64,000 bases of DNA from NCBI GenBank assembly GCA_021848825.1, contig JAJZTQ010000009.1:17634-81633 (forward strand), read 5' to 3'. Numbering within the stretch: position 1 is the first letter of the stretch; each line of letters opens with the position of its first letter. The stretch is from Pseudomonadota bacterium. GTDB taxonomy: Bacteria > Pseudomonadota > Gammaproteobacteria > Burkholderiales > JABEVD01. Both the position numbers and the translations under genes were made by a program. The notes below the pieces were generated by a model. It worked only from the letters and a program-made list of their open reading frames with translations. It searched no databases and was not told the origin of the DNA. Shown here in pieces: positions 1,968 through 46,108 of this stretch.

Positions 1968-3189
1968 TGCCTTCCGCCTCCGCTATTTCTCTTCTGGCCT
2001 GTTCTTCCACTGCAGCAGGCAGGCCTCTTGCCAATACCATTCTCTCTTCCCATCTCGAAACAAAGGGCAGCAGCAGGAAGATCAGGAAATAGATCGTCGT
2101 CGAAATTTCCCCGACCGTCTTCAGCGGCCCGGTAGGCGGGTTCGCCCCGACATAACCCAGCACGAAGATGTTGATCACGAAGATGTAGAACATCGCCCTG
2201 TAGACAGGCCTGTACCTCGCCCCGCCCGTAATCCTGGAACGGTCGAGATAGGGCATGGCTGCGAAGATCAGAACCGATATCGCCATCGCCACGACCCCGC
2301 CCGCCAGATCGGGCACCGAGCGCAATATCGCGTAGAAAGGCAGGAAGTACCATTCGGGAACGATGTGCGCAGGGGTCTGCATCGGATTTGCAGGGATGTT
2401 GTTCGCCGCCTCGATGAAGAGATCGGGCTTGAAGAAGACGATCAGCAGGTAGACGATCATGAACACGCCCAGGCCGAACAGATCCTTGATCGTGAAATAG
2501 GGATGGAAGGGAATGTTGTCCTTGTCGGCAAGATTGATCCCCGAAGGATTGCTGCTCCTCACTGTATGCAGGGCGACCAGATGGATCACGACTGCGGCGA
2601 AGATGAGGAAGGGGAAAAGGTAATGCAGGGAGAAGAACCTCGTCAGCGTAGGATCATCCACCGTGAACCCGCCTCGCAGCCAGGTCACGATCTCCTGCCC
2701 GTATACGGGCGTGGCCTTGAAGAGGCTGGTGATCACCTGAGCGCCCCAGTATGACATCTGTCCCCAGGGAAGCAGATAACCCATGAAGGCTGTCGCCATC
2801 ATCAAGAGCAGAAGTCCCTGCCCTGTCCACCACAGCAGCTCTCTCGGACGCCTGTACGAACCGTAATAGAGCGTTCTCGCCATATGGGTGTAGATCACGG
2901 CGAAAAATGCCGAAGCGCCGGTCGAATGCAGATAGCGTATCAGCCAGCCGTAATTGACTTCGCGCATGATGTGCTGGATCGAGTCGAAGGCGAGCTTGGA
3001 ATCCGGCTTGTAATGCATGGCGAGGAATACGCCTGTCACGATCTGGATGACGAGCACGAATCCTGCCAGAAAACCGAATCCCCACCAGTAGCTCAGGTTG
3101 CGGGGAGTGGGATAATCCGTCAGTTCATGCTTGATGAAATAGCTCAGGGGAAAACGCTGATCAACCCAGGAAATGATCTTGCTCATCAC
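1960..3189 (-). CDS. petB: Ubiquinol-cytochrome c reductase, cytochrome b
   Basis: Cytochrome b core (WWGFGFLAGFVLVIQIVTGVFLAMHYKPD, LPWGQMSYWGAQVIT, PEWYFLPFYAILRSVP). Confidence 0.97.
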   Translation of the reverse strand: MMSKIISWVDQRFPLSYFIKHELTDYPTPRNLSYWWGFGFLAGFVLVIQIVTGVFLAMHYKPDSKLAFDSIQHIMREVNYGWLIRYLHSTGASAFFAVIYTHMARTLYYGSYRRPRELLWWTGQGLLLLMMATAFMGYLLPWGQMSYWGAQVITSLFKATPVYGQEIVTWLRGGFTVDDPTLTRFFSLHYLFPFLIFAAVVIHLVALHTVRSSNPSGINLADKDNIPFHPYFTIKDLFGLGVFMIVYLLIVFFKPDLFIEAANNIPANPMQTPAHIVPEWYFLPFYAILRSVPDLAGGVVAMAISVLIFAAMPYLDRSRITGGARYRPVYRAMFYIFVINIFVLGYVGANPPTGPLKTVGEISTTIYFLIFLLLPFVSRWEERMVLARGLPAAVEEQARREIAEAEGNA

Positions 3190-11768: not shown

Positions 11769-12854
11769 TCAGGCGGCCTTTCTCAGCATGGGATTGAGAT
11801 GGAGCACGGCTGCCTCGCGGAAGCTGTACCAGATTTTCTTCTCGTAATCGTAGAGCTGGCAGCGCTTGAAAATCCCGACAACCGTGGAGAACCTGAAGCG
11901 GTATTCGTGGATATACTGGCCATACTCCCGCTTGATGTCGCGATACGCTTTCTTCAGGTGGTAGAAGGGAATCCTGTTGTCCACATGATGAGGGATATGA
12001 ATCATGATGTTGTGGATCAGCACTTCGCTCAATGCGGAACAGCGCACGATCGTGCTGCAGTAGACCTGCCCGATGGTGTTGCTCCATTCATTGCGCTGGT
12101 CGAAATAGGGAATATCGGGGTGGGTGTGATGCAGGAAAACGAAAAGCGCGATGAAATAATTGAAAACCACGAAAGGCAGGATCACGGCCGACACCACACC
12201 CCATATTCCGCCTGCATAACGGTAGGCCAGCGCCGAATAGGCCATGAAGAAGATCAGCGTGAGCACCTTGGAAATCGAGAACAGATGCCTGTCCCTCAGG
12301 TTGTGATCGGGCTTGAAGCGAACCATGCCCGCCCACCAGACGCGCAGCAGGTAATGCAGCGCACAGGTATAGGGGCTCCTTTCCATGCGGTAGACGAAGC
12401 GCTGGAATGCGGATTTTGAAGCATATTCCGCCGGGGTCAGGGGGCGCCAGATCCAGTCTATGGGCGTGAAGGAAGTGAATCCGTGATGCACCTTGTTGTG
12501 TCCATAGGACCACAGCCTGTACATGTTGAGCGAAGGCAGCATGAAGAGCGTCCCCAGGATTTCCGACACACGCTTGCTCTTGAAGAGGGTGCCGTGCGCC
12601 GCATCATGCGCCCAGACAAACATGAAAGCCACAGAGCAGCCTGCGAGAAGGCCGAAAAGGAGTTTGGCCAGCAAGGCATGGCTGAGAAAAACGCCGCTTA
12701 TCGACCCGAGATAAAGCGAAAGATCAAATGCATACCAGAAGAGCGCACGAAGCGTCGAGCGATTGTAACACTCAGGCGAAATCGCCTGCCTCACCGCCTG
12801 AAGCTTGACGTCGTGCAATTCCCTGTAGGATGGAAGGCTCATGTATTTCCTCAA
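11769..12854 (-). CDS. Fatty acid desaturase family protein
   Basis: Histidine boxes HDAAHG, HNKVHH, HIPHHVD; several TMs. Confidence 0.88.
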   Translation of the reverse strand: MRKYMSLPSYRELHDVKLQAVRQAISPECYNRSTLRALFWYAFDLSLYLGSISGVFLSHALLAKLLFGLLAGCSVAFMFVWAHDAAHGTLFKSKRVSEILGTLFMLPSLNMYRLWSYGHNKVHHGFTSFTPIDWIWRPLTPAEYASKSAFQRFVYRMERSPYTCALHYLLRVWWAGMVRFKPDHNLRDRHLFSISKVLTLIFFMAYSALAYRYAGGIWGVVSAVILPFVVFNYFIALFVFLHHTHPDIPYFDQRNEWSNTIGQVYCSTIVRCSALSEVLIHNIMIHIPHHVDNRIPFYHLKKAYRDIKREYGQYIHEYRFRFSTVVGIFKRCQLYDYEKKIWYSFREAAVLHLNPMLRKAA

Positions 12855-12929
12855 AAAACTTAAAAAAACTCGGTAGTTACGTAATAACTGAATGATAACG
12901 GAATGATATCACGAATTCGAGCATTTCTT

Positions 12930-12943
12930 TTGATCCAGATCAA
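12930..12943. promoter_or_regulatory. FNR box (perfect consensus)
   Basis: TTGAT-CCAG-ATCAA at 12930-12943; fnr itself is encoded at 19921-20646. Confidence 0.85.
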
Positions 12944-12977
12944 ATCGCAAATTTTGACGAACGGTAGAATGGTCTCT

Positions 12978-13079
12978 GTCGCAACGGTGTATGCAGGCAT
13001 GATCGGTGCGGGTTCAAAGGTTGCTCCGTTCCACGCCATTTCCCGCTTCGAGCCATAGCGGGAATGGCGTGTTTTTTTT
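12978..13079 (+). ncRNA. Candidate FNR-activated small RNA (~100 nt)
   Basis: FNR box centred at 12936.5 is -41.5 from 12978; -10 TAGAAT at 12965-12970; strong terminator CACGCCATTTCCCGCT-loop-AGCGGGAATGGCGTG-TTTTTTTT ending 13079; no substantial ORF. Confidence 0.65.
13032..13079 (+). terminator. Intrinsic terminator of candidate sRNA
   Basis: 15-bp stem with one bulged T followed by eight T residues. Confidence 0.9.
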
Positions 13080-13228
13080 GACATGGCCTTGATCGTCCTT
13101 GCAGCGTTGCATTTTTGCGACAGTTTTTTAAAACCATTTTAACAGTGTGGTTTAAGGTGCTAGATTTTAAATGGCTGTCGATCAAGGCAGTCGGAACCAG
13201 AAACCAGTCCTTTCTCAAGGAGAAATAC

Positions 13229-14065
13229 ATGAAAAAAACTATTATTGCCGCAATGCTTTCCTTTCCTTTCTGCGCCAACGCAGCCGTCACCAACATCGAC
13301 GGCCAGGCTGGCGGCGGAATCGTTCCCTGGGCGCTGCTTTCCTCAGGCCCGACTGTGGCGTACACCCATATCGAGACCCAGAATCTCGGCATCAACAGCC
13401 TGGCGATCAACACCAGCTTCGCCAACCGGGTTGAAGTATCTTATGCGCGCAACATGCTGAACGACAATGGCTCGGCTCTCGGCAACAGCAACAATACGGA
13501 CAATGTCGACAATTTCGGCATCAAGGTGAAGATCAACGACATGAGCGACTCCATGCCCCAGTTCGCCGTGGGCGCCGTGTACAAAAAGGTTTCGGGCAAT
13601 CTCTACGACAACGTGCTGAGCCCCGCACTCGGCGTCAACAATTCGTCGACCGATCTCTATGGCGCAGCCAGCAAGATCGTCAATATAGGCGGCAAGAACG
13701 TGCTGCTCAACGGCGTGCTGCGCGCGACGAAAGCCGACGAACTGGGCCTCCTCGGATTCGGCGGCGGAAGCACCCCCGGCGCACCGAGTGGATACAAGAT
13801 CGTGCCTGAAGTGTCGGCCGAAGTTTTTGCGGCAGCCAATGTCGTGGTGGGCGCGGAATACCGCAAGATGCCGAATTTCTCCGTAGCCGGGGCGACGGAT
13901 GGCATCCTGCATCCCAATTCCGCTTATGATTTCCACGTCGTCTATGTCGCGAACAAGACCTTCACCTTGACGGCGGCTTATGCCAACCTCGGAGAAGTCG
14001 CACCGGCAGTCAACGGCACGAACAGGCAGAACGGCCTTTTCCTTCAAGGGCAGGTGAATTTCTGA
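13229..14065 (+). CDS. DUF3034-like secreted/outer-membrane protein
   Basis: Signal peptide MKKTIIAAMLSFPFCANA; NLGINSLAINTSFANRVEVSYARN...FGIKVKIND resembles DUF3034; terminal VNF. SD AAGGAG upstream. Confidence 0.7.
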   Translation: MKKTIIAAMLSFPFCANAAVTNIDGQAGGGIVPWALLSSGPTVAYTHIETQNLGINSLAINTSFANRVEVSYARNMLNDNGSALGNSNNTDNVDNFGIKVKINDMSDSMPQFAVGAVYKKVSGNLYDNVLSPALGVNNSSTDLYGAASKIVNIGGKNVLLNGVLRATKADELGLLGFGGGSTPGAPSGYKIVPEVSAEVFAAANVVVGAEYRKMPNFSVAGATDGILHPNSAYDFHVVYVANKTFTLTAAYANLGEVAPAVNGTNRQNGLFLQGQVNF

Positions 14066-14085
14066 GCTGAAAATTCCTGAATTGC

Positions 14086-14121
14086 AGGCCATTCCGGGCA
14101 AAGCCCGGAATGGCCTTTTTT
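14086..14121. terminator. Intrinsic terminator
   Basis: AGGCCATTCCGGGC-AAA-GCCCGGAATGGCCT-TTTTT. Confidence 0.9.
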
Positions 14122-19650: not shown

Positions 19651-19929
19651 ATGGAAAAGACGGACGCAGCGAAACCCAAGACAAAAACCGCAGCGAAAGC
19701 TGCAGCAACAAGCGAAGCTGTAGTGAAGGCTGCACCCAGAAAAACGGTTTCGAGAACCAAGAAGGATCCGCAGATCAGCCCGGAAATTCGCCACAGGATG
19801 ATCGCCGACGCGGCCTATTACCGCGCGAAGAAATTCGGCTCGGCCGGCAGCGGAGACGATCTCGTGCATTGGCTGGCCGCGGAAACGGAAATCGATGCGA
19901 TGCTGAAGAAAGGCGAAATGTCAAGCTAG
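19651..19929 (+). CDS. DUF2934 domain protein with Lys/Ala-rich N-terminus
   Basis: PEIRHRMIADAAYYRAKKFGSAGSGDDLVHWLAAETEIDAML. Confidence 0.8.
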   Translation: MEKTDAAKPKTKTAAKAAATSEAVVKAAPRKTVSRTKKDPQISPEIRHRMIADAAYYRAKKFGSAGSGDDLVHWLAAETEIDAMLKKGEMSS

Positions 19930-20646
19930 GGAACCGAGGAGGCGCTTCAACGCATTCGCATCCTTGAGTTCTATGAATTTCTTCTGCACGGCGATCAGCC
20001 CTTCATCCTGGAACTTGGAAAAGGTCCGGCTGACGGTTTCGAGCTTGAGTCCAAGGTAGCTGCCTATTTCCTCCCGGGTCATCCTCAGCTGGAAGCTCGC
20101 CGCGGAATAGCCTCTTGCCGAGAAGCGCTGCGAAAGGTTGAGAAGGAAGGCAGCGAGCCTTTCTTCGGCGCGCATTTTGCCAAGCATCAGCATGATCTCG
20201 TGATCGAAAGCGATTTCCCTGCTCATGATCCTGTGAAGATTTTGCTGAAGAACCGGCATGCACATGCTGAGTTCCGAAAGCCTGTCGAAGGGGATCTCGC
20301 AGATCTCGCTGGTTTCAAGGGCCACCGCATCGCAGACATGCGCCCCTGAGCCGATCGCGTCGAGCCCCATGATGTCGCCCATCATGTGGAAACCCGTGAC
20401 ATGCTCCCGTCCATCTTCGTGCAGCACCGAAGTCTTGAAAAAGCCGCCCCGGATGGCATATATGGCACTGAAAGGGCTGCCCGTACGGTAGAGATATTCC
20501 CCTCTTTTCACGAGCTTCTTGCTTCCTGCCAGCGCATCGAGCTGCTCGAGTTCCTGCGGACCGAATCCGATGGGCAGGCAAAGCTCCCGGAGGCTGCACA
20601 GCGAGCAGACCACCTTGAGCTGATTCAGGATATTGTCCTCTTTCAA
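19921..20646 (-). CDS. fnr: Crp/Fnr family regulator with FNR-type Fe-S cysteines
   Basis: N-terminal VCSLCSLRELCLP cluster cysteines, additional Cys in SEICEIPF, recognition helix LETVSRTFSKF (ExxSR, TTGAT-type specificity). Confidence 0.92.
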   Translation of the reverse strand: MKEDNILNQLKVVCSLCSLRELCLPIGFGPQELEQLDALAGSKKLVKRGEYLYRTGSPFSAIYAIRGGFFKTSVLHEDGREHVTGFHMMGDIMGLDAIGSGAHVCDAVALETSEICEIPFDRLSELSMCMPVLQQNLHRIMSREIAFDHEIMLMLGKMRAEERLAAFLLNLSQRFSARGYSAASFQLRMTREEIGSYLGLKLETVSRTFSKFQDEGLIAVQKKFIELKDANALKRLLGSLA

Positions 20647-43603: not shown

Positions 43604-46108
43604 ATGCCAGACAAACGCCTCGTCAGAAGCAACCCCGTCCCCAACATCACGGAACTGCCCCCGCTCGGGCTCGCCTCCGTCAACATTGCCGAAGATTTCA
43701 AGCGGCACTTCACCCATACCCTGGGTCGGGACAAGTATTCGAAATCTGTTCATTATGTCTACAGCGCATTGTCGATCACGATGCGGGACAGGCTGATGGA
43801 GCGATGGAAGAAGACGAAATACGCCTATCATGAGCAGGACTGCAAGCAGACCTACTACCTTTCCCTCGAATTCCTGATGGGCAGAGCGCTCGGAAACGCC
43901 ATGCTGAACCTCGGCATCACGGATGAAACGGAGCGCGCCATGATGGATCTCGGACTGGTGCTGGAAGAACTCACCGAGAAGGAAAAGGATGCGGGTCTCG
44001 GAAACGGCGGTCTGGGCCGCCTTGCAGCCTGCTTCCTGGACAGCTGCGCGACATTGCAGCTTCCGGTCATGGGATACGGCATCCGCTACGAATACGGCAT
44101 GTTCAGGCAGATCATCCAGAACGGCTACCAGGTCGAGGAGCCTGACCATTGGCTGAGGGACGGAAACGTCTGGGAAATCGAGCGCCCCGAATACACGCAG
44201 CGCATCCATTACGGCGGAAGAAGCGAAGCCTACAAATCGGAAAGCGGCCAGATGAAGATGCGCTGGGTGGATACCAGCGACGTGCTTGCCGTCCCCTACG
44301 ACGTGCCCATCCCCGGCTACAGGAACGGCACGGTCAACACGCTGAGGCTATGGAAGGCTGCCGCGACGGACGAATTCAATCTCACCGAGTTCAATCTGGG
44401 GGGATACGCCGAATCCGTTTCCGCCAAGAATGCTGCGGAAAACATCACCATGGTGCTCTATCCGAATGATGCGAGCGAGAACGGCAAGGAACTCAGACTG
44501 AGGCAGCAGTATTTCCTCGCCTCCGCAAGCCTTCAGGACGTGCTCGCGCGGTGGAAGGCCTCTCACGGAAACGATTTCTCCGAATTTGCCGAAAAGAACT
44601 GCTTCCAGCTGAACGATACCCACCCGACCTGCGCGGTCGCCGAACTGATGCGCCTGCTGATGGACGAGCATGGTCTCTGCTGGGACGAAGCATGGGCCAT
44701 CACGTCGGATACCATGGCCTACACGAACCATACGCTTCTTCCGGAGGCGCTCGAAAAATGGCCGGTGAGGATGTTCGAGAAGCTCCTCCCCAGGCTGCTC
44801 GAAATCATCTACGAGATCAATGCGCGATTCCTCACGAAAGTTGCGGCCAGATGGCCATGGGACTTCGAGCGGCAGGCCAGGATGTCTCTGATAGAGGAAG
44901 GCGAAGTTCCCCATGTCAGAATGGCCTATCTCGCGATAGTCGGCTCCTTTTCAGTCAACGGCGTGGCTGAACTCCATTCCGATCTTCTGAAGAAAGGGCT
45001 CTTCAGGGATTTTCATGATCTCTGGCCTGAAAGATTCAACAACAAGACGAACGGCGTCACGCCCAGGCGATGGCTCGCCTGGTGCAATCCCGGCCTTTCA
45101 AAACTGATCACCTCCCGGATAGGGGAAGACTGGATCACGGATCTTTCCGACCTGAAAAAACTCGCGCCGCTTGCCGAAGATAGGGAATTCCGGAAGGCCT
45201 GGCGGGAAGTGAAGCGCAACAACAAGCTGAAGCTGATCGAATACCTGAAGGATCCCGGTCATGGCGGTGTGGAATTCGATCCCGATTCGCTTTTCGACGT
45301 CCAGGTCAAGCGCATGCACGAATACAAGCGTCAGCTTCTCAACATCCTGCACGTCATCCATCTGTACGACAGGATCAAGGAAGGGGATACGCTCAACTGG
45401 ACGCCCAGATCCGTGTTGATAGGCGGGAAGGCTGCACCCGGCTACTACATGGCGAAATGCATCATCAAGCTGATCTGCAACGTCGCCAACATCGTCAACA
45501 GCGACGAATCCGCCAACAGCTTCCTCAAGGTCGTGTTCATGCCCAACTACCGCGTCTCGGCAATGGAGATGATCTGCCCCGCCACGGATCTCTCGGAACA
45601 GATTTCGACTGCCGGGAAGGAAGCATCCGGAACGGGGAACATGAAGTTCATGATGAACGGCGCCGTCACCATCGGCACGCTCGATGGCGCGAACATCGAA
45701 ATAAGAGAGGAAGTGGGAAGCGAAAATTTCTTCCTGTTCGGGCTCGATGCGCATGAAGTGGAGGCGGTCAGGCAGCATTACAACCCGGGCGAGATCATCG
45801 AGCGGGACAGGGATTTGAAGCGGGTGATGCGCCTCATCGAATCGGGGCATTTCAACAAGTTCGAACACGGCATTTTCGACAGCATCATCCATTCCATCTA
45901 CAGCCCTCACGATCCCTGGGTTGTCGCAGCGGATTTCAGGAGCTATGTCGATGCCCAGGAACGCGCAGCCAAAGCCTACCAGGACCAGGACAGCTGGACC
46001 AGGATGAGCATTCTGAACACCGCTGCAAGCGGAAAGTTCTCCACCGACAGGACCATGCGCGACTACAATCAGAGCATCTGGCGGCTCGAAAGGGTCGACC
46101 CCGTTTAA
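43604..46108 (+). CDS. glgP: Glycogen/alpha-glucan phosphorylase
   Basis: YYLSLEFLMGRALGNAMLNLGI, NGGLGRLAACFLDSCATL, EASGTGNMKFMMNGAVTIGTLDGANIEI (PLP site). Confidence 0.98.
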   Translation: MPDKRLVRSNPVPNITELPPLGLASVNIAEDFKRHFTHTLGRDKYSKSVHYVYSALSITMRDRLMERWKKTKYAYHEQDCKQTYYLSLEFLMGRALGNAMLNLGITDETERAMMDLGLVLEELTEKEKDAGLGNGGLGRLAACFLDSCATLQLPVMGYGIRYEYGMFRQIIQNGYQVEEPDHWLRDGNVWEIERPEYTQRIHYGGRSEAYKSESGQMKMRWVDTSDVLAVPYDVPIPGYRNGTVNTLRLWKAAATDEFNLTEFNLGGYAESVSAKNAAENITMVLYPNDASENGKELRLRQQYFLASASLQDVLARWKASHGNDFSEFAEKNCFQLNDTHPTCAVAELMRLLMDEHGLCWDEAWAITSDTMAYTNHTLLPEALEKWPVRMFEKLLPRLLEIIYEINARFLTKVAARWPWDFERQARMSLIEEGEVPHVRMAYLAIVGSFSVNGVAELHSDLLKKGLFRDFHDLWPERFNNKTNGVTPRRWLAWCNPGLSKLITSRIGEDWITDLSDLKKLAPLAEDREFRKAWREVKRNNKLKLIEYLKDPGHGGVEFDPDSLFDVQVKRMHEYKRQLLNILHVIHLYDRIKEGDTLNWTPRSVLIGGKAAPGYYMAKCIIKLICNVANIVNSDESANSFLKVVFMPNYRVSAMEMICPATDLSEQISTAGKEASGTGNMKFMMNGAVTIGTLDGANIEIREEVGSENFFLFGLDAHEVEAVRQHYNPGEIIERDRDLKRVMRLIESGHFNKFEHGIFDSIIHSIYSPHDPWVVAADFRSYVDAQERAAKAYQDQDSWTRMSILNTAASGKFSTDRTMRDYNQSIWRLERVDPV

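Follow-up and report, generated by a model that had tools for sequence, protein, structure and literature searches.

A predicted FNR-controlled small RNA family of one Burkholderiales genus, found as a free-standing gene and as the 3' untranslated region of outer-membrane-protein mRNAs

The window analysed in this work, a stretch of 64,000 nucleotides (nt) from a Burkholderiales genome (contig JAJZTQ010000009.1 of assembly GCA_021848825.1), harbors between positions 12930 and 13079 an FNR box, a -10 element, and an intrinsic terminator, with no obvious coding gene. The question raised by this locus is whether it encodes a small RNA (sRNA), as the original prediction had proposed by analogy with FnrS and AniS, and, if so, where such a gene might come from and what its RNA might pair with. 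The locus was compared across the nine known genomes of the genus, all of them Burkholderiales metagenome-assembled genomes (G000-G008, G000 being that of the window). The organisms are uncultured; to judge from isolate names, and as a guess, they may come from acid mines or sediments. According to these data, it is likely that the locus encodes an FNR-activated, Hfq-type base-pairing sRNA derived from a 3' untranslated region (3' UTR). The comparison supports a genus-specific family of FNR-controlled sRNAs that takes two forms, the 3' UTR of outer-membrane-protein (OMP) mRNAs and a free-standing gene, and for which two candidate targets are conserved.

The promoter and the conserved module

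The perfect FNR box TTGATCCAGATCAA (12930-12943) lies 21 nt from the -10 element TAGAAT (12965-12970, plus strand), and the hairpin ACGCCATTTCCCGC..GCGGGAATGGCGT runs into eight T, the last of them at 13079; in these respects the sequence is as originally described. A start at 12978 places the box centre at -41.5, and the predicted sRNA, with its start derived from this distance and its end at the T8 tract, would measure 102 nt (12978-13079, plus strand). The occurrence of the box at this locus is more than chance, the exact pattern TTGATN4ATCAA having one copy in the window and five in the 2.74-Mb genome, and the reversed control pattern none. Moreover, each of the 11 orthologous promoters in the nine genomes has the box, with a -10 spacing of 21 nt at ten of them and of 22 nt in G003; a class II FNR geometry (a box near -41.5 plus a -10 element) is therefore kept across the relatives. 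The regulator itself is encoded in the window, as had been stated along with its ExxSR helix: the fnr gene product (19924-20646, minus strand), a Crp/Fnr regulator, carries CxxCx5C plus a fourth Cys and the recognition helix ETVSR, and matches the NCBIfam Fnr subfamily NF008365 with 264 bits (cut-off 228). A gene for Hfq is located elsewhere in the same genome.

Downstream of the FNR promoter, a module of the form UUGCUCCGUUCC-ACGCCAU-hairpin-U7/8 is kept in 9/9 genomes. At the DNA level, the block TTGCTCCGTTCCACGCCAT, together with the hairpin and T7-8 (T8 in the window), occurs in 11 copies, and the 12-nt seed UUGCUCCGUUCC is identical in every one of them. In the window the seed reads TTGCTCCGTTCC (13021-13032, plus strand), the block runs on to 13039 (ACGCCAT), and the intrinsic terminator (13032-13079, plus strand) consists of a 15-pair stem plus T8. 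The 5' leader of the predicted sRNA (12978-13018, plus strand) differs in sequence and length between genomes, and the alternative pairings suggested for the 5' half (GCAAC/GTTGC and AACGG/CCGTT) are not conserved among the relatives. Similarly, the A/G-rich stretch suggested as a seed reaches into the conserved block (13021-13039) with its last nucleotides, UUGCUCC, the rest lying outside; the seed is UUGCUCCGUUCC.

The module of G000 and that of G004 are identical at 62 of 62 positions, even though the four-fold sites of the adjacent desaturase gene are 51% identical between these genomes (48-64% in most genome pairs). Across seven genomes, 23% of the four-fold columns of the desaturase are invariant; at this rate, 11 invariant unpaired seed columns would be expected with a probability of about 1e-7, a rough estimate because the neutral proxy is drawn from this single gene. 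Both-sided changes are found in two pairs of the terminator stem, with 99.3% of cells pairing vs 32-51% in slid controls. The 102-nt predicted RNA folds better than its shuffles (z = -2.5), mostly owing to the terminator. A conserved peptide is excluded because stops and indels break the reading frames in relatives; the codon-level selection that would have spoken for a coding sequence is not seen, and the sequences indicate that selection acts on RNA rather than on codons. The joint conservation of box, -10 element, seed, and terminator, with a covarying stem, thus agrees with the original prediction of a non-coding RNA of about 100 nt behind an FNR promoter.

The family appears to be confined to the genus. 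When 399 Burkholderiales genomes were searched with a covariance model built from the genus copies, full matches were confined to the genus; four weak matches in other genomes cover the terminator hairpin alone and were rejected as homologs. No related DNA was found in plasmid or phage collections, and the Rfam search that had been suggested gave no match at the locus, neither at gathering thresholds nor at E values up to 5. The proposed likeness to FnrS and AniS therefore holds for the logic, and homology is not supported.

Organization of the locus across the genus

Where contigs allow, the synteny is fixed: a desaturase gene on the minus strand, the shared FNR box, a variable interior, and an M16/PreP peptidase gene. 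In G001, G003, G006, and G007 the interior harbors a gene for a DUF3034 outer-membrane protein (a beta-barrel), with the module as its 3' UTR; G002 and G005 show a tandem arrangement (FNR box, DUF3034, module, FNR box, OmpW, module). The 3'-UTR form, with an FNR-box-driven OMP gene (DUF3034 or OmpW), is found in six of the nine genomes, the window's not among them, and in these the module has a NarS-like location at the 3' end of an mRNA. No open reading frame (ORF) separates box and module in G000, G004, and G008, whose predicted free-standing RNAs measure 102, 82, and 81 nt, respectively. The stand-alone gene originally proposed is thus seen in the window and two relatives, but in most relatives the module belongs to an OMP mRNA. 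An AU-rich stretch lies upstream of the seed in most forms. In G002 (L036, around 3113-3143), the module is set apart from the OmpW stop codon by an additional GC hairpin, CGCCCTCCGGGGCG, with TTTTC after it; this hairpin is possibly a partial terminator separating mRNA from sRNA.

In the window and in G004, a DUF3034 gene (13229-14065, plus strand, in the window) follows the free-standing module and has its own promoter region without an FNR box; G008 has no DUF3034 gene at the locus. The 3' ends of these two genes still show TTGAATTGC or TGAATTGC, and the TCCGTTCC part of the seed is gone; in the window (14076-14121, plus strand), TGAATTGC is kept in a degenerate module with a different terminator. 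Since the porin-linked module has lost the seed where a free-standing copy coexists, function seems to follow the seed and not the mRNA.

In the midpoint-rooted desaturase tree, G002 and G005 stand on one side, G000 is joined with G004 (90/92), and G008 is unresolved; the porin tree, which places G000 with G003, disagrees with it. Parsimony favours the direction from 3' UTR to free-standing RNA. As to the complete scenario, in which the 3' UTR was freed from its mRNA after loss of the porin ORF, the seed then disappeared from the redundant copy on a porin that had been relocated or duplicated, and the 12-nt seed controls hitherto unnoticed membrane proteins of 29-34 amino acids (aa), we would give it an even chance.

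On the other side of the shared box, the fatty acid desaturase gene (PF00487; 11769-12842, minus strand) is preceded by the divergent -10 element TATCAT (12903-12908, minus strand). Because this element also lies 21 nt from the box and is kept in all nine genomes, FNR probably activates the desaturase through this box as well. An identical FNR box occurs in the window genome at G000:C12:3609-3622 (L093), upstream of a sterol-desaturase-like gene, which thus encodes a further lipid-modifying enzyme behind an FNR box. A second hairpin resembling an intrinsic terminator, GTTGCATTTTTGCGACAGTTTTTT, is located in the window at 13106-13127, 26 nt past the sRNA terminator. Regarding the new upstream region of the DUF3034 gene, the window shows an inverted repeat AAACCA-N11-TGGTTT at 13133-13156; a similar ATACCAT..ATGGTTAT is found at the same place in G004. 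In view of these repeats, another regulator may have replaced FNR at the DUF3034 gene in the two genomes.

Candidate targets of the seed

Targets were predicted by pattern searches for the seed complement GGAACGGAGCAA, within one mismatch, filtered for hits conserved in leaders. Two small-protein genes carry a conserved complement in their leaders. The first encodes a 34-aa protein with a single transmembrane (TM) segment (MADAIQFTN..GVVVL..), which is present in 9/9 genus genomes and was found in none of the 141 other genomes searched. Its leader reads GCCGNAAGGC-ACGGAGC in all nine, with ACGGAGCA invariant (the alignment gap is placed differently in G000 and G004), and the site is located upstream of a separate Shine-Dalgarno (SD) sequence, AGGAGA; the genomes being related, these are not nine independent tests. 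The predicted duplexes between seed and leader have energies between -16.4 and -20.8 kcal/mol; of 500 dinucleotide shuffles in each genome, 0-10 were as good. In the window genome the site lies outside the window (G000:C21:15043-15054, minus strand).

The second gene encodes a TM protein of about 30 aa, next to a gene that we take, from our own reading of its sequence, to be hpnE-like. The complement in its leader is GGAACGGAGCAAC in G002 and G005 (13 bp with the seed), GGAACGGAGCA in G001, G006, and G007 (11 nt paired), and the core CGGAGC in G004 and G008, which gives a pairing site in seven genomes. Neither small membrane protein matches Pfam or NCBIfam. A conserved seed is thus accompanied by conserved complementary sites, and the terminator ends in at least 7 U, as in Hfq-type sRNAs. 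The predicted sRNA is probably Hfq-dependent and probably controls the two genes. A related TM protein of about 34 aa (MDVHAWYILFF..LPAVILLSDDGN..) is encoded in G000 (G000:C37 around 43673-43756, minus strand; L213) and in G003 (L184), the two genomes without the hpnE-adjacent small protein; its SD sequence GGAGCAA is complementary to the seed over 7 nt.

Two other candidates were discarded. The SD sequence of iscR, CGGAGCAA, is complementary to the seed in four genomes (G001, G002, G004, and G005), but G000, G006, and G007 have lost this match, so that iscR is not a conserved target. A site within the desaturase coding sequence (12078-12090, minus strand; GGAATGGAGCAAC/TGAATGGAGCAAC), complementary over 12-13 nt with one G-U pair, is best explained by protein conservation, because the EWSN motif that it probably encodes is conserved and the codon choice varies; pairing with the seed is the less probable reading.

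Alternative explanations, proposed mechanism, and known systems

Other readings of the locus have to be weighed against a base-pairing sRNA. A small protein, such as the product of the 19-aa frame MIGAGSKVAPFHAISRFEP (12999-13058), is hardly credible: the frame is open through the conserved block in the window, but in G001, G003, G006, and G007, for example, it lacks a start and is closed by a stop immediately ahead of the block (...TTGA|GTTGCTCC), indels in loop and stem break the frame (G002), and the stem changes are non-synonymous yet preserve pairing. It is also quite unlikely that promoter and terminator are a functionless relic of the deletion of an OMP ORF. The ORF is indeed absent between box and module in the three genomes with the free-standing form and present in relatives; nevertheless, the G000 and G004 modules have stayed identical after its loss, box and -10 element are kept, and the copy that decayed is the redundant, porin-linked one. 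Somewhat less improbable, though still doubtful, is a block serving only as a strong terminator or mRNA-stabilising 3' end, whether in termination, in the control of decay, or in binding a protein. No other structural feature is as strong as the hairpin, and in six genomes the module stands at the 3' end of OMP mRNAs. Terminator function, however, needs pairing and not sequence, and the stem drifts with compensation whereas the unpaired 12 nt are invariant; moreover, the module persists without any ORF, and two unrelated leaders have kept its exact complement.

The alternative with the best prospects, a minority one in our judgment, accepts a real FNR-dependent sRNA and takes ACGGAGCA for a separate leader element, so that the two small-membrane-protein leaders would not be targets. 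A hairpin lies directly 5' of the element in both leaders, and ANGGA-type motifs can bind CsrA. On the other hand, five genomes show an uninterrupted complementarity of 11-13 bases, and the two genes that share the motif encode unrelated products and differ in their leader hairpins. Several results nonetheless weigh against the sRNA with two targets that we prefer. Genome-wide near-matches to the seed complement are no commoner than those of the reversed control, and the near-matches in the window (20 vs 22 expected) and most of those in its own genome are coding or unremarkable; as whole-genome scanning gives a number equal to the control, the argument for targets is one of conservation, and a conserved leader element could serve another function. 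Furthermore, G000 and G003 yielded no copy of the second target gene. Finally, in the window's full-length 102-nt RNA a weak hairpin with the non-conserved 5' leader takes up part of the seed, whose mean unpaired probability is 0.32 in this RNA, 0.43 in G004, and 0.59 in G008, compared with 0.92-0.94 in the two 3'-UTR forms tested. Processing or Hfq may therefore be needed, and processing to a form of about 65 nt is plausible in the window too.

Combining the conserved architecture, seed, and covariation with the complementary sites, we infer the following for transcription, FNR dependence, the involvement of Hfq and RNase E, and the sign of regulation. At low oxygen, FNR would bind the box at -41.5 and activate the RNA of about 102 nt on one side and the fatty acid desaturase on the other. 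Hfq would bind the U-tail of the RNA, and the seed UUGCUCCGUUCC, just 5' of the terminator hairpin, would pair with ACGGAGCA sites that precede the start codons by about 25-50 nt, beside the SD sequences of genes for membrane proteins of 29-34 aa, most likely lowering their translation or stability. In relatives the same RNA would be the 3' UTR of an FNR-box-driven DUF3034/OmpW mRNA, presumably freed by RNase E; in the lineage of the window, loss of the ORF between promoter and 3' UTR would have left a free-standing sRNA gene.

FnrS of Enterobacteriaceae is an FNR-activated, trans-pairing RNA of about 100 nt with an intrinsic terminator in an Hfq-encoding host. The RNA predicted here from sequence shares the FNR-box promoter, size, terminator, pairing logic, and Hfq-encoding host; it differs in having no Rfam match, another seed and context, an OMP 3'-UTR origin, and a distribution restricted to one Burkholderiales genus. 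AniS and gonococcal FnrS of Neisseria are betaproteobacterial sRNAs made under oxygen limitation, whose targets have been described as elusive (PMC5362039); the present family differs from them in lacking an Rfam match and in having two conserved candidate leaders. For the 3'-UTR form, the nearest system is NarS of Salmonella, a 63-nt sRNA from the 3' UTR of FNR-activated narK that acts on another membrane-protein mRNA (PMC9438474), although parent gene and sequence differ and the module described here also exists as a free-standing gene. Regarding the occurrence of two forms at the same genomic position, the closest case is MalH/MicX (PMC9438474), where the sRNA is processed from a 3' UTR in one species and has a promoter of its own in the other; in the present family, both forms share seed and candidate target and retain the original FNR promoter.

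The origin of free-standing sRNA genes is largely unresolved. Three forms of the same seed are seen in the genus, namely a single OMP 3' UTR, tandem OMP 3' UTRs, and a free-standing predicted sRNA with a decaying 3'-UTR sister, and because one syntenic locus in one genus shows all three, the route from 3' UTR to gene becomes directly testable. Moreover, these data provide a concrete and conserved target candidate for a betaproteobacterial sRNA that would respond to oxygen, beyond model organisms, and draw attention to tiny membrane proteins without a match in Pfam or NCBIfam.
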